Translations under genes and position numbers: made by a program
Assembly (NCBI GenBank): GCA_024280835.1
Contig: JAJRPJ010000017.1
Span: 1 to 64,000 of the forward strand
Source: Candidatus Zixiibacteriota bacterium
GTDB lineage: Bacteria > Zixibacteria > MSB-5A5 > GN15 > JACZUZ01
Direction: 5' to 3'
Length of the DNA stretch: 64,000 bases
Shown: positions 2,856 to 26,685 of the stretch, piece after piece
How positions within the stretch are numbered: the first letter of the stretch is position 1
How the letters are laid out: every line of letters begins with the position of its first letter
The notes under the pieces: model-generated
Seen by the model: the letters and a program-made list of their open reading frames with translations, nothing else
What the model was told of the DNA's origin: nothing
The model's database searches: none

Positions 2856-2896
2856 ATAGATTCTTAGTAGTTTGTTGGGATTATCTGAGAATCTAT
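2856..2896 (-). terminator. inverted repeat at the nusB stop codon, possible terminator of the rib operon
   Basis: ATAGATTCT (2856-2864) and AGAATCTAT (2888-2896) are perfect reverse complements around the nusB stop codon. The stem is AT-rich and no long T tract follows on the minus strand, so intrinsic termination is uncertain. Confidence 0.3.
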
Positions 2897-3297
2897 TTTA
2901 TGGTTTTGGCGAATGTATCGAGAATACCGTTGATGAATCGTGGGCTTTCTTTGCCACCATAGCGTTTGGCTAGCTCTACGGCTTCGTTGATTGAGACATT
3001 GACTGGGATATCTGGGAAGTGCGCGAGTTCGGTCATTGAGAGTCTGAGGATATTTTTGTCGACAGTGGCGATTCTCTCGAAGGTCCAGTTTTTGGCGAGT
3101 GCGGTTATTTGAGTGTCGGCTTCTGATGAATTGGAGATGATTTTTTCATAGAGGGTTCTGACGAATTTTTGGGTGTCGTCGTCGAATTTACTACGCTCCA
3201 TTAGAGAGTTGAAGGCCACCTCTGGCTTTTGCTCACCTACTTCATGGGCATAGAGGGCTTTTAGAATTAACTCTCTGGCTTTTCTGCGTGAACTCAT
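2893..3297 (-). CDS. nusB: transcription antitermination factor NusB
   Basis: A 134-residue protein starting SSRRKARELILKALYAHEVG, the conserved opening of NusB, and ending with the conserved VNEAVELAK / FINGILD-type region (here SINEAVELAKRYGG and FINGILDTFAK). NusB with NusE (S10) binds boxA RNA and forms the rRNA antitermination complex in the cytoplasm. An open frame continues upstream to 3441, but that part overlaps ribH in another frame and has no family similarity; I chose the ATG at 3297, five bases after the ribH stop. nusB following ribH is a common bacterial arrangement, so the gene is probably the last member of the riboswitch-controlled rib operon. Confidence 0.95.
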   Translation of the reverse strand: MSSRRKARELILKALYAHEVGEQKPEVAFNSLMERSKFDDDTQKFVRTLYEKIISNSSEADTQITALAKNWTFERIATVDKNILRLSMTELAHFPDIPVNVSINEAVELAKRYGGKESPRFINGILDTFAKTIK

Positions 3298-3301
3298 CTT
3301 A

Positions 3302-3841
3302 TTAGACGCTCTGCTCTTGGCAAAGTCCCCTCGTGACAGACATCTCTTGGGCGAGTAGGGCCATCTCGACTGCTGTACGAACGCTGCTACGGCCTTTGTG
3401 TCCGTGGACCCCTGTGCTGTTTTCTTCTCCTGAGCGCTCATTGGCTTGCTCGATATTTTCCGTGGTTAAGACACCGAAAATAATTGGCTTCCCTGTTTTC
3501 AATGATAATGATTCCAATCCATTCGCGCAGGATTGGCAAATGTATTCGTAGTGTGAGGTTTCTCCGCGAATCACACACCCTAGGCATATTATCGCGTCAT
3601 ATGTGTCATTAAGCAAGAGAATATTCGCAGCTTGTGGTAATTCAAAGGCGCCTGGGACTTCGACGATGGTTATTTTTGATTTTTCGGCTCCGAGTGAGTT
3701 GAGTTCGTCGAGCGCTCCTTCTAGCAGTCGGGCTGTGACTGCGCTATTAAAGCGACTGACGGTTATCCCTAGACGCAGTCCTTGGGCGTTTAGCTGGGGT
3801 TGTTTTAAGTCTGTGCCTGTATTTGAGTAGTCTATTGCCAT
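3302..3841 (-). CDS. ribH: 6,7-dimethyl-8-ribityllumazine synthase (RibH)
   Basis: 179 residues. The protein condenses 5-amino-6-ribitylamino-uracil with 3,4-dihydroxy-2-butanone 4-phosphate to lumazine, the penultimate step of riboflavin synthesis. Visible family signatures are ITVSRFNSAVTARLLEGA near the N-terminus, VPGAFELP, LGCVIRGETSHYEYIC and the catalytic-loop region FGVLTTENIEQANERSG. About 20 extra residues precede the core compared with short homologues, and the C-terminal tail (TRGLCQEQSV) is atypical. It sits 56 bases after ribBA and directly before nusB. Confidence 0.97.
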   Translation of the reverse strand: MAIDYSNTGTDLKQPQLNAQGLRLGITVSRFNSAVTARLLEGALDELNSLGAEKSKITIVEVPGAFELPQAANILLLNDTYDAIICLGCVIRGETSHYEYICQSCANGLESLSLKTGKPIIFGVLTTENIEQANERSGEENSTGVHGHKGRSSVRTAVEMALLAQEMSVTRGLCQEQSV

Positions 3842-3897: not shown

Positions 3898-5217
3898 TTA
3901 TTGAATCTTTTGAGTTGGGAGTTTGTCCATTTCGGAGATGAGATGACCGAGTTTCTCTCGCTTGGTTTGCATGTAGAACTCATTGAATTGGTTTGGGGCT
4001 GTGAAAGCTGAATCGCGGTGGATGACTTTTATGCCGCCTGAGACTAGTCCTTGGATTTTGCGAGGGTTGTTTGTCATTAGGGTTACTGAACTGACATTTA
4101 GTTTTTGTAGAATTGCGGCGCAGGTCGAGTATTCGCGCAGGTCTGGTTCAAAGCCTAATTGTAGGTTGGCTTCGACTGTGTCGGCGCCTTTGTCTTGGAG
4201 GGCATAGGCTTTGATTTTGTTGGCTAAGCCGATGCCTCTTCCCTCTTGGCGCATGTAGATGACTATGCCGCGTCCTTCTTTTTCGATTCGTTCGAGGGCG
4301 AGAGAGAGTTGGGGGCCGCAGTCACAGCGCTGGGAGCCGAAGGTGTCGCCTGTTAGACATTCTGAGTGGATACGAGTGAAGATATTTTCTCCGCCTTGTA
4401 TGTCACCTTTGATGATGGCGACGTGGTCTTTGCCGTCAGCGAGTGAGCGGAAGAGATGCAGTTTGAAGTCGCCGAATTTTGAAGGGAAGTTTACGACTGC
4501 GACTTCTTTGATCAGAGCTGGGTCTGGAATTGATTCTATGTTTGTTATGACAGTTGCTTTTGTGCCGTTGGTTTTGGCTTTTAGTTCATTGCGCTCTGTT
4601 TGGTATTTAACCAAGGCCTCAATGGTGATTATTTTGAGTCCCCACTCTTTGGCTTTCTCTAGCAGCTCTGGTGTGCGGGCCATTGTGCCATCGTCTGAAA
4701 GTATTTCACACAGGGCGCCGACTGGGGCTACGCCTGCGAGTTGACAAAGTTCGACTGCCGCTTCTGTGTGACCTGGTCGGGCTAGGATTCCGCCAGCTTC
4801 GCATTTCAGGGGGAAAATGTGTCCTGGTCGGCCGAACTCTTCTGGTTGGGTGTCTATTCGCGCGAGGGCATTGAGAGTTTGCGCGCGGTCGGCTGTTGAA
4901 ATGCCTGTGGTTGCGCCAGCTAAGAGATCGACTGAGACGGTGAATCTTGTGTTTAGTCTAGCGGTGTTATCTGCGACCATTTGATTTAGCGCTAGACGCT
5001 CCAGCCATTCTTGGGTCATTGGCGCGCAAAGCAAGCCACGCGCGTTGCGAGTGATGAAGTTGACATCGGCGGGTGTAACAGAACGGGCGGCCATGATGAT
5101 GTCGCCTTCGTTCTCGCGGTCTTCGGAGTCGAGAACGATTATCATCTTGCCGTCGCGAACGTCGCTGACGGCTTCTTCAATTGTATTGAATTTTGTATCA
5201 GTTTTAGGATTGTTCAT
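3898..5217 (-). CDS. ribBA: bifunctional 3,4-dihydroxy-2-butanone 4-phosphate synthase / GTP cyclohydrolase II
   Basis: 439 residues with two domains. Residues about 10-205 are RibB: DSEDRENEGD at 30-39 holds the acidic metal-binding loop, followed by FITRNARGLLCAPM and RPGHTEAAVEL. Residues about 210-415 are RibA: SECLTGDTFGSQRCDCG supplies the zinc-binding cysteines and RQEGRGIGL is the GTP-binding region. The enzyme feeds both branches of riboflavin synthesis. The frame extends to 5241, but AAGGAG lies inside that extension 9 bases before the ATG at 5217, so 5217 is the supported start. It follows ribE after a 153-base gap that holds a possible small ORF. Confidence 0.97.
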   Translation of the reverse strand: MNNPKTDTKFNTIEEAVSDVRDGKMIIVLDSEDRENEGDIIMAARSVTPADVNFITRNARGLLCAPMTQEWLERLALNQMVADNTARLNTRFTVSVDLLAGATTGISTADRAQTLNALARIDTQPEEFGRPGHIFPLKCEAGGILARPGHTEAAVELCQLAGVAPVGALCEILSDDGTMARTPELLEKAKEWGLKIITIEALVKYQTERNELKAKTNGTKATVITNIESIPDPALIKEVAVVNFPSKFGDFKLHLFRSLADGKDHVAIIKGDIQGGENIFTRIHSECLTGDTFGSQRCDCGPQLSLALERIEKEGRGIVIYMRQEGRGIGLANKIKAYALQDKGADTVEANLQLGFEPDLREYSTCAAILQKLNVSSVTLMTNNPRKIQGLVSGGIKVIHRDSAFTAPNQFNEFYMQTKREKLGHLISEMDKLPTQKIQ

Positions 5218-5312
5218 ATTGTGTTTCTCCTTCGGCGACAAGAGGTGTTGTTGTTCTTGTTTGCTTCTGGTGGTTTTTGGGTAGCGCCCTTTTTGCCAGC
5301 TTTATTTGGCAT
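5214..5312 (-). CDS. candidate 32-residue basic peptide ORF ending in the ribBA start codon
   Basis: In the ribE-ribBA gap a short ATG frame encodes MPNKAGKKGATQKPP followed by an Asn-rich and then Arg-rich tail. Its TGA overlaps the ribBA ATG as ATGA, and the ribBA ribosome-binding site lies within it. No convincing ribosome-binding site precedes its own ATG. It may be chance, or a leader that couples translation into ribBA. No family is recognised. Confidence 0.22.
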   Translation of the reverse strand: MPNKAGKKGATQKPPEANKNNNTSCRRRRNTI

Positions 5313-5370: not shown

Positions 5371-6084
5371 TTATTCAGCGAAACTAATTATTGATTCGAT
5401 TTCGTTGTGTTTTGCTGGGTTTATGTTTTCTCCACTGGCGCGTAATTCTGCGTTGCGGAGGGCGAATTTTGCGAACATATCAAATTCTAGGTTGACGTTC
5501 TCCCCGACTGACAGAGCGGCGAAGTTTGTTTGCTCATTGGTGTGGGGGATTATATTGATGGTGAAACTTTTGGTTGTTGTTGAATCAGTATCTGCTGTTT
5601 CATCGATTAGAGTGTTGATGGTTAAGCTGACACCATCGATAGTGACGCTGCCTTTGGGTATCACAAGCGCGCTATGAGTGGCGGGATAGGACACTCTTAT
5701 GAGAGTCGAGCCTGCGTTGGGTTTGGCTTCGGTGATTTGGCCGAGGCAATCGATGTGACCGCTGACGACATGCCCGCCGAAGCGGTCGCCGAGCTTTAGG
5801 GCGCGTTCTAGATTTACTGTGGCGCTTGTTTTTATTTTTCTGAGGGTTGTTAGTGAGAGCGTTTCCTCAGAGACGAAGAATAACAAATTCTTTGGAGCGG
5901 TATTGCTATCCGAGCCTTGCTTAGCAAGGACTGTCAAGCAGCAACCGTTGACGGCGATTGATTCCCCATCGACTGGTGGATCTGAGTCTGGGAAAGGATT
6001 TGACATCTTTAGTGTCGCGCCGCCTTCTGGTAGCGCTTCGACAGCGTTTATTTTTGCTCTATGAGTAATCAGGCCAGTGAACAT
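5371..6084 (-). CDS. ribE: riboflavin synthase, alpha subunit type
   Basis: 237 residues beginning MFTGLITHRAKI, the near-invariant N-terminus of riboflavin synthase, which dismutates two lumazines into riboflavin and the pyrimidine precursor. Two homologous lumazine-binding halves are visible: the first with SIAVNGCCLTV and the second with GSVTIDGVSLTI and HVVSGHIDCLG. An upstream in-frame ATG at 6105 is possible, but the MFTG start at 6084 matches the family and is preceded by a purine-rich AGAGAAGAGGG. The start lies four bases after the ribD stop, consistent with translational coupling. Confidence 0.96.
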   Translation of the reverse strand: MFTGLITHRAKINAVEALPEGGATLKMSNPFPDSDPPVDGESIAVNGCCLTVLAKQGSDSNTAPKNLLFFVSEETLSLTTLRKIKTSATVNLERALKLGDRFGGHVVSGHIDCLGQITEAKPNAGSTLIRVSYPATHSALVIPKGSVTIDGVSLTINTLIDETADTDSTTTKSFTINIIPHTNEQTNFAALSVGENVNLEFDMFAKFALRNAELRASGENINPAKHNEIESIISFAE

Positions 6085-6088
6085 TAGT

Positions 6089-7249
6089 TTACCCTCTTCT
6101 CTCATTTATTGTTCGTGTTTGGGGATAGCCGCTGAACATCATGTCGGAGCCGATGGCAGAGAATGAACTTCTGTCGTAGGAAATTGCGTCAGTGATTTTT
6201 TGAGAATGCAAATCTCCGACGGCTTCAATGCCGGCTCCGAGAGTTAGAGGCGCAATGATGACGATGTGTTTGTCGACGAGGCCGAGTTTTAGGAAGTCTG
6301 TTGCTAGACGACCGCCACCTTCGACCAGTATCGAATTTATGCCGAAGTCCCAAGCCTTGGCGAGGAAGTCTTCAAGGTTTAGATGTTCTCCCTGTGATTT
6401 ACTCTGCCGCTCTACTTGCCACCATGTGAGTCCATTGGTTTGGCTGAACGATTTGGGTAAACGTGACTTGCAAGTTACCAGAATTGTTTTGCGGTCTTGG
6501 TTGTCGGTAAAGAGTTTTAGTTTTGGAGAAAGATTGGCATTGGTTGAAAGGACAATGCGATAGGGATTGGCGCCTTTGACGTGGCGAACAGTTAGGGCAG
6601 GATTATCTAGCTCGACAGCGCGCGCGCCGAGTACGACTGCGTCGACTTCGGCGCGGAGCCTGTGGGCAAGTTCTAGTGAGCTTGTTCCTGAAATCCATTG
6701 GGAGTATCCATTGGCGCAGGCGATACGTCCATCTAGCGTTTGGGCTGACTTGAGAATGACGAATGGGCGCTTTCGGCGAAAGCGATTGATGTAGATTTCG
6801 TTTAGCGCTTCAGCTTCTTCTCGGAGTAGTCCGCTTTTGACTGACAGACCTGCGCGGCGTAAGGTTTTTGCTCCTTGGCCATTGACTAAAGGATTTGGAT
6901 CTTTGGCGGCAAAGATTGTTTCTTTGAGACCAGCTTCGATGATGGCTGTTGTGCAGGGGCCTGTACGGCCAGTGTGACAACAGGGCTCAAGAGTGACGTA
7001 CAAAGTGGCGCCCCGAGCTTTTGGGCCTGCTTGTTTTAGGGCGGCTATTTCGGCGTGGCGGCTGCCAGCTTTCTTGTGATAGCCCTCCCCGACTATTATG
7101 CCTTTGCGGACAACTACTGCGCCGACATTTGGATTGGGGGCAGTTAGACCGCGCCCACGTTCGGCGAGTTCTAGCGCTCTGCGCATGAACTGGGTGTGGT
7201 CTGTTTTGGCAGTATTTTTTTTGGCTATAGCCATACTAAATTTGCTCAC
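6089..7249 (-). CDS. ribD: bifunctional diaminohydroxyphosphoribosylaminopyrimidine deaminase / 5-amino-6-(5-phosphoribosylamino)uracil reductase
   Basis: 386 residues. The N-terminal deaminase domain carries the zinc motif HAEIAAL and PCCHTGRTGPC (the usual second motif is GRTPPC, so one Pro is Gly here). The C-terminal reductase domain starts near ILKSAQTLDGRIA and includes ISGTSS, DAVVLGARAVELDNPALTVR and NSILVEGGGRLATDFL. The enzyme performs steps two and three of riboflavin synthesis from the GTP branch. The first codon of the frame is GTG at 7249; an ATG at 7234 is an alternative. It is the first gene behind the FMN riboswitch and its long leader. Confidence 0.96.
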   Translation of the reverse strand: MSKFSMAIAKKNTAKTDHTQFMRRALELAERGRGLTAPNPNVGAVVVRKGIIVGEGYHKKAGSRHAEIAALKQAGPKARGATLYVTLEPCCHTGRTGPCTTAIIEAGLKETIFAAKDPNPLVNGQGAKTLRRAGLSVKSGLLREEAEALNEIYINRFRRKRPFVILKSAQTLDGRIACANGYSQWISGTSSLELAHRLRAEVDAVVLGARAVELDNPALTVRHVKGANPYRIVLSTNANLSPKLKLFTDNQDRKTILVTCKSRLPKSFSQTNGLTWWQVERQSKSQGEHLNLEDFLAKAWDFGINSILVEGGGRLATDFLKLGLVDKHIVIIAPLTLGAGIEAVGDLHSQKITDAISYDRSSFSAIGSDMMFSGYPQTRTINERRG

Positions 7250-7594
7250 GCTTCTTTGTTCGGTTCTTTCGGTTTAAAGGCAATAGGCTCGAAGCAATAG
7301 AACTGTGATTGACTATTGCGGAGCCGAAAAGAGCCGAACTTCATATTTGTATTTTCGGGGTGTTAGTGGAGAAGAAAGGCGAGAGTTCACAATTGCCGCT
7401 TAGAACAAAGCGCTGCGTTGTGAATCGCTCTGACGATGTGGCTAACGCTGTGTAAGACAATCGCCAGCGTTGAACAGGGTTTCTAAGTTACTGCCTATGG
7501 CAATGACTTCGATACCTGAGACTTAGGTATTGTCTTAACAAGCGGCAGTATTAGAAGACTGTACTAATCTCCAAATACTGAGCCACATCGTTTT
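7250..7594 (-). promoter_or_regulatory. long structured leader between the FMN riboswitch and ribD
   Basis: 345 untranslated bases separate the aptamer from ribD. I see several inverted repeats: CGATGTGGCT (7434-7443) with 7581-7590, AACGCTG (7444-7450) with 7465-7471, AAGACAAT (7454-7461) with 7529-7536, TACTGCC (7489-7495) with 7544-7550, and ATACCT (7512-7517) with 7525-7530. The AAGACAAT pairing crosses both the AACGCTG and the TACTGCC pairings, so these cannot all form in one nested fold. No convincing ORF was found. This may be the expression platform or a separate element. Confidence 0.55.
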
Positions 7595-7718
7595 GATTCT
7601 TCTCCCATCCGGACTGTAACCGTCGGCGCTGGAATTACACCAGCTCAATCCATGTGTTTTTCATGGACTCGCGGACTTTCACCGCCGGTTGAGGTATTTC
7701 ACCTCACCCCGAAGAATC
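7595..7718 (-). ncRNA. FMN riboswitch (RFN element)
   Basis: On the minus strand the segment begins with an 8-bp P1 (GATTCTTC against GAAGAATC) and contains the RFN conserved pieces GGTGAAATACC-like, CCGGCGGTGAAAGTCCGCGA, the GGTGTAATTCCAGCGCCGAC block and CAGTCCGGATGGGAGAAG. These are the core of the FMN aptamer. FMN binding should reduce expression of the downstream ribD-ribE-ribBA-ribH-nusB operon by early termination or start-site masking. No T-run hairpin follows at once; the next 345 bases are the likely platform. Confidence 0.97.
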
Positions 7719-26102: not shown

Positions 26103-26606
26103 ATGTATCGCAAGGTAGCGGATTTTTTGAAGAGTTATGAATATGAAACAGCAGCTACGATTAAGACACTTGGCGCTTTGAGTGATGAATCATTGTCGCA
26201 GTCGGTTTGTAATGAGCATCGGACATTGGGGCGCATTGCCTGGCATACTGTGACGACTATCACTGAGATGATGTCGCAAACTGGACTTAGTTTGCCTGCT
26301 GTTGACAAGGATGCGCCTGTTCCGAAAACGGCGGCGGAAATAGTTGAGGGTTATAAGCGCGCGTCATCTGAGTTGGCGACAAAAGTTGAGGCTGAGTGGA
26401 CAGATGAGAGTTTGCTGACTGAGGATAATATGTATGGCGAGACTTGGGTTAAGGGTCAGACGCTGGCGGTTTTGGTTCATCATGAGATTCACCATCGCGG
26501 TCAGATGACGATTTTGATGCGTCAGGCGGGATTGAAAGTTCCGGGGATTTATGGGCCTTCTATGGAAGAATGGGCGGCTTTTGGGGCGCCTGTTCCTAGT
26601 GTTTGA
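26103..26606 (+). CDS. DinB-like protein
   Basis: 167 residues. The metal-site His residues are visible in RIAWHTVTTI and VHHEIHHRGQMTILMRQAG, the DinB/YfiT signature. The start at 26103 follows AAAAGGAG and is preferred over the upstream 26058. Function beyond membership of the DinB superfamily cannot be stated. A strong terminator follows. Confidence 0.88.
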   Translation: MYRKVADFLKSYEYETAATIKTLGALSDESLSQSVCNEHRTLGRIAWHTVTTITEMMSQTGLSLPAVDKDAPVPKTAAEIVEGYKRASSELATKVEAEWTDESLLTEDNMYGETWVKGQTLAVLVHHEIHHRGQMTILMRQAGLKVPGIYGPSMEEWAAFGAPVPSV

Positions 26607-26628
26607 AGCGCTTAAGAGTATTAAGAGG

Positions 26629-26664
26629 GGCGGTGTTGACATAGTGTCAACACCGCCTTTTTTT
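26629..26664 (+). terminator. intrinsic terminator after the DinB-like gene
   Basis: A perfect 13-bp stem (GGCGGTGTTGACA, 26629-26641, against 26645-26657) with a TAG loop, then seven T's. It lies between convergent genes. Confidence 0.95.
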
Positions 26665-26685
26665 GTGCCAATGATTTGATGTATT

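Follow-up and report, generated by a model that had tools for sequence, protein, structure and literature searches.

The closest described systems are the FMN riboswitches of Rfam family RF00050, with which the locus described here shares a full-length aptamer upstream of ribD, a riboflavin operon, and P1 as the switching helix. In the Escherichia coli ribB leader, which combines Rho-dependent and translational control, exposure of a rut site depends on FMN, that is, the rut site is closed without ligand and open with ligand (PMC10085680; opening by the ligand is also described in PMC5234074). Dual transcription/translation attenuators are defined by a terminator that is separated from the start codon by 10 nt or less (Barrick and Breaker 2007, PMC2258182). 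We found no paper on riboswitches of Zixibacteria in the literature.

The locus lies in a 64,000-nucleotide stretch of DNA from a Candidatus Zixiibacteriota bacterium (the window; all coordinates refer to it). It differs from the RF00050 riboswitches in that its anti-P1 segment is located ~240 nt downstream, behind a folded spacer. The E. coli ribB leader also has an anti-P1 segment downstream of the aptamer, at 66 nt from the aptamer core versus 236 nt in the window; in addition, Rho action in the window is proposed by analogy, and the start site is not predicted to change in the window's fold. Leaders elsewhere in the order resemble the dual attenuators: the anti-P1 element (a', below) supplies the 5' arm of a terminator, and the U-tract of that terminator abuts the ribD start codon. 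The window, in contrast, has no such terminator, and its start is >100 nt beyond a'.

The FMN aptamer and the riboflavin operon

The aptamer (RFN element) occupies positions 7720-7593 of the minus strand (cmscan, 109.6 bits against a curated cut-off of 66.2 bits, E 1.3e-24) and matches the model over its full length (positions 1-138 of 138). In the Rfam alignment, the 5' strand of P1 is GAUUCUUC (7711-7718, model positions 3-10) and the 3' strand is GAAGAAUC (7595-7602). Downstream on the same strand are ribD (bifunctional deaminase/reductase; 6089-7234, PF00383 and PF01872), ribE (riboflavin synthase; 5371-6105, two Lum_binding domains), and ribBA (3898-5241, PF00926 and PF00925), followed on the minus strand by a probable ribH (lumazine synthase; 3302-3841) that was recognized by reading the ORF translation. 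The ribD ORF is open from a GTG at 7249, but comparison with the N-termini of relatives makes the ATG at 7234 the preferred start; the leader from the aptamer to ribD is ~345 nt. An earlier note on this DNA had described an FMN riboswitch followed by a long leader; both are real, although the strand needs correction, the RNA being that of the minus strand.

We consider it fairly probable that the aptamer controls the ribD-ribE-ribBA(-ribH) operon as an FMN OFF riboswitch that uses a distant anti-P1 segment; we infer the direction of switching (FMN = OFF). Two further features of the region were observed. The probable ribH and the next ORF, whose translation reads as NusB-like, are in different frames and share 140 bases (window 2893-3841, minus strand). 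A 32-codon ORF (window 7246-7344, minus strand) begins just past the anti-P1 segment and has a stop codon that overlaps the GTG at 7249. This ORF and a 37-aa candidate were rejected as features of the leader because no counterpart was seen in relatives.

Distant segments predicted to pair with P1

Two downstream segments, a' and b', are able to pair with P1 and thereby exclude the aptamer fold. The anti-P1 element a' (CACCCCGAA; 7354-7362, minus strand) lies 236 nt after the aptamer core and can form 9 bp with UUCGGGGUG (7713-7705), that is, with the P1 5' strand and the GGGGUG that follows it; its CCCCGAA is the complement of UUCGGGG, so that it matches both the P1 strand and the adjoining conserved GGGG. 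Just upstream of a', b' (UUCUUCUCC; 7368-7376, minus strand) can form 9 bp with GGAGAAGAA (7605-7597), which overlaps the P1 3' strand. The minimum free energy fold of the full leader, calculated without FMN, contains the two pairings together, with the structured spacer as a looped-out domain; its energy is -181.2 kcal/mol versus -167.6 kcal/mol when P1 is forced, values that describe secondary structure only and ignore FMN, tertiary contacts, and the order of co-transcriptional folding. Applied to E. coli ribB as a positive control, this search also returns a 9-bp anti-P1 pairing.

CCCCGAA would be expected by chance with a probability of 0.021 in a 350-nt segment of this genome, yet it is present in all four members of the window's family. 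To place this in the order, we compared 54 FMN leaders, 4 in the family and 50 outside it (L002, L004-L017, L019-L031, and L034-L055). CCCCGA follows 53 of the 54 aptamers (the exception, L024, has CCCCGG); in 48 of the 50 outside-family leaders it pairs as the 5' arm with a GGG(G) that closes the hairpin, and the U-tract behind this hairpin runs directly into the ribD start codon (GGGG-U4-9-AUG/GUG). The terminator pattern missed L022 and L024, in which similar hairpins are found by eye. Where the U-tract adjoins the start codon in this way, a single hairpin can act as terminator and at the same time cover the Shine-Dalgarno position. The support for a' is conservation, not covariation, because P1 itself is invariant. 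The probability that a 16-mer drawn at random from this genome equals b' in pairing is 0.0005; b' is essentially confined to the window (3 of 53 leaders at p <= 0.05), so it was rejected as an order-wide feature.

With FMN bound, P1 would be held closed. Without FMN, the C/U-rich, G-poor segment 7376-7354 would invade P1 from both sides, with b' taking the P1 3' strand and a' taking the 5' strand and the GGGG. The proposed switching segment, 7376-7354, lies outside the inverted-repeat arms that the earlier note had listed.

Possible outputs of the switch

In the predicted folds, a' becomes largely unpaired on closure of P1 (probability 0.88, up from 0.12), and the 45 nt before a' become partly so (0.53, up from 0.37); the ribD start site is nearly unchanged (0.52 versus 0.46 in the two predicted states). 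This predicted behavior is consistent with a C-rich, unstructured segment that becomes exposed when FMN binds. FMN would then most likely lower expression because Rho could enter at the single-stranded segment, in the manner of E. coli ribB. Rho is the effector that we favor by this analogy, and it is the weakest step of the proposal, weakly supported because the rut-like composition is just moderately unusual: C minus G is at the 97.6th percentile, and 13% of 340-nt genomic segments match or beat its rut-like (spaced-C) score. The Rho signature is absent in two of the four family members. Rho itself is encoded both in this genome and in the same-genus genome G001. In this genus, the ORFs that contain the RNA-binding domain of Rho (G000:C10:331810-332031 and G001:C16:67652-67873) reach 498 and 484 aa, compared with 418-439 aa elsewhere in the order.

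The same FMN switch could instead act through an intrinsic terminator that is weak, having decayed from the CCCCGA...GGGG-U7 type of the order. Here a' would pair with UUCGG (~7338-7334), which is followed by CUCUUUU, at a position that matches the terminator in the 48 outside-family relatives; also, one family member, L032, retains a strong terminator (UGCCCC...GGGGCAUUUUUG). However, the 5-bp stem has an energy of -3.9 kcal/mol versus a mean of -8.9 kcal/mol in the relatives (range -12.2 to -4.7), the terminator scan called none in the window leader, and nothing comparable is found in L018 or L033, so we regard this output as unlikely. Neither the scan nor this best candidate provides the window leader with a GC-rich hairpin and U-tract under the control of the anti-P1 segment, and three of the four family members, the window included, are without the order-type terminator.

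A general loss of intrinsic terminators in the family was also considered and is not borne out by the counts in this genus, which exceed those in local shuffles (28 and 25 per 100 kb versus 15 and 19.5). The TPP leaders also bear on this point: both genomes of the genus contain a TPP riboswitch (L183:1501-1617 and L184:1501-1615) that scores below the Rfam cut-off (47.9 and 46.9 versus 54.3 bits), and their leaders are long, appear by eye to have terminator-like hairpins, and precede an apparent secreted-protein gene.

FMN binding might also mask the ribD start. Translational control is the default class for leaders without a terminator (Barrick and Breaker, PMC2258182), and a stable hairpin ends ~8 nt before the GTG at 7249. 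This distal hairpin (GUUCGG...CCGAAC, 7258-7339, minus strand; z -3.5 for offsets 245-350) is, however, predicted whether P1 is closed or not, no GGGG with which a' could pair lies near the start, and the nearly equal start-site accessibilities given above do not describe a start that is masked only in the ligand-bound state. Masking of the start seems to us improbable.

The structured spacer and the leaders of the family

The 236 nt between the aptamer and a' appear to be a structured spacer composed of a compact domain and a hairpin. The domain (7433-7591, minus strand) is closed by a perfect 11-bp helix and holds 10-bp and 8-bp pairs; the hairpin (7377-7431, minus strand) is found in both the minimum free energy and centroid folds (z -2.1 for offsets 166-238). 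The first 160 nt of the leader (7592-7425) fold at z -6.6 and the exact domain at z -7.4; the background of 798 160-nt blocks of the window has a mean z of -0.5 (sd 1.2), with one block below -6. That block, which has the lowest folding z in the window, is a strong intrinsic terminator (window 26620-26670) downstream of a gene that ends at 26606.

As the earlier note had claimed, the leader is rich in inverted repeats: 12 perfect repeats of at least 7 bp versus 2.8 in dinucleotide shuffles (a count reached by 0 of 500 shuffles), one of which is at least 10 bp (versus 0.05 in shuffles; 25 of 500 reach it). The leader also folds clearly better than shuffled RNA (z -5.5). The four arm pairs singled out in the note are all exactly complementary, and its outer 10-bp pair (7434-7443/7581-7590) is in fact 11 bp (7433-7443/7581-7591). 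The note went on to propose that crossing among these arms implies alternative folds or a pseudoknot. The outer pair and the 8-bp pair (7454-7461/7529-7536) coexist in one nested minimum-energy fold, with pairing probabilities of 0.985 and 0.991; the 8-bp pair is crossed by two 7-bp pairs, 7444-7450/7465-7471 and 7489-7495/7544-7550, which have pairing probabilities of 0.000 at costs of 5.9 and 11.8 kcal/mol, that is, they are the losers in one fold and do not form a switch. The pseudoknot of 7489-7495/7544-7550 with 7454-7461/7529-7536 was rejected: at ~-104 kcal/mol versus -110.2 kcal/mol for the nested fold, it is ~6 kcal/mol worse even before any pseudoknot penalty. Thus, when the leader is considered alone, the crossing of arms does not reflect alternative states. 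The leader does hold mutually exclusive pairings, as the note had supposed, but these are not the listed arms as equally populated alternatives; judged from sequence, the exclusive pairing that comparison backs is the one with helix P1 of the aptamer. The listed arms stay unsupported by covariation, the criterion that the note itself had set, because they have no counterpart in relatives; no homologous leader could be aligned by DNA in 60 relatives.

Long leaders are a lineage-specific trait that all four family members share: the first ribD match lies 227-350 nt from the aptamer in the family (n=4) versus 48-144 nt in the other 50, figures that are affected by the match often starting a few codons inside ribD. 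The fold of the spacer is not shared. Even in the same genus, the spacer has an unrelated sequence and an ordinary fold (z -1.5), the spacers of the three other members give z -1.5 to -2.4, and no shared sequence is detectable among the four; because the other spacers are ordinary and unrelated, this genome is the only one of those compared that has the exceptional fold. We suggest that the spacer would bring the ends of the aptamer and a' together and delay transcription of a'.

The strength of this fold (only one of the 798 blocks of the window is below -6) is what recommends the domain as an RNA in its own right within the leader, regulatory or protein-binding, an idea close to the second regulatory RNA of the earlier note. 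The domain has no Rfam match (no second Rfam family matches the leader), it has no homologue in the 60 relatives, and its same-genus counterpart is the unrelated, ordinarily folded spacer described above; nothing beyond fold strength supports a second RNA, and we judge the proposal very unlikely. A more specific version, in which the domain is a second sensing or protein-binding RNA between the aptamer and the anti-P1 segment, so that two inputs would converge on one switching segment, is a long shot. A small inserted mobile element, suggested by the perfect 11-bp inverted ends of a 159-bp domain, is highly improbable, given a single copy in the genome (BLAST and pattern search), no flanking target duplication by eye, and long leaders in all four family members. 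The locus is an unusual layout of a known device, not a new regulatory RNA.

The FMN platform has been rebuilt within one family: in the order it is a compact terminator fused to the start codon, whereas the family keeps just the anti-P1 segment, up to ~240 nt downstream, and three of its four members are without the terminator. These leaders provide a natural series for testing how much distance between the aptamer and the switching segment is tolerated, whether the time available for FMN to bind is set by the length of the spacer, and by what route a switch based on an intrinsic terminator acquires a different output.
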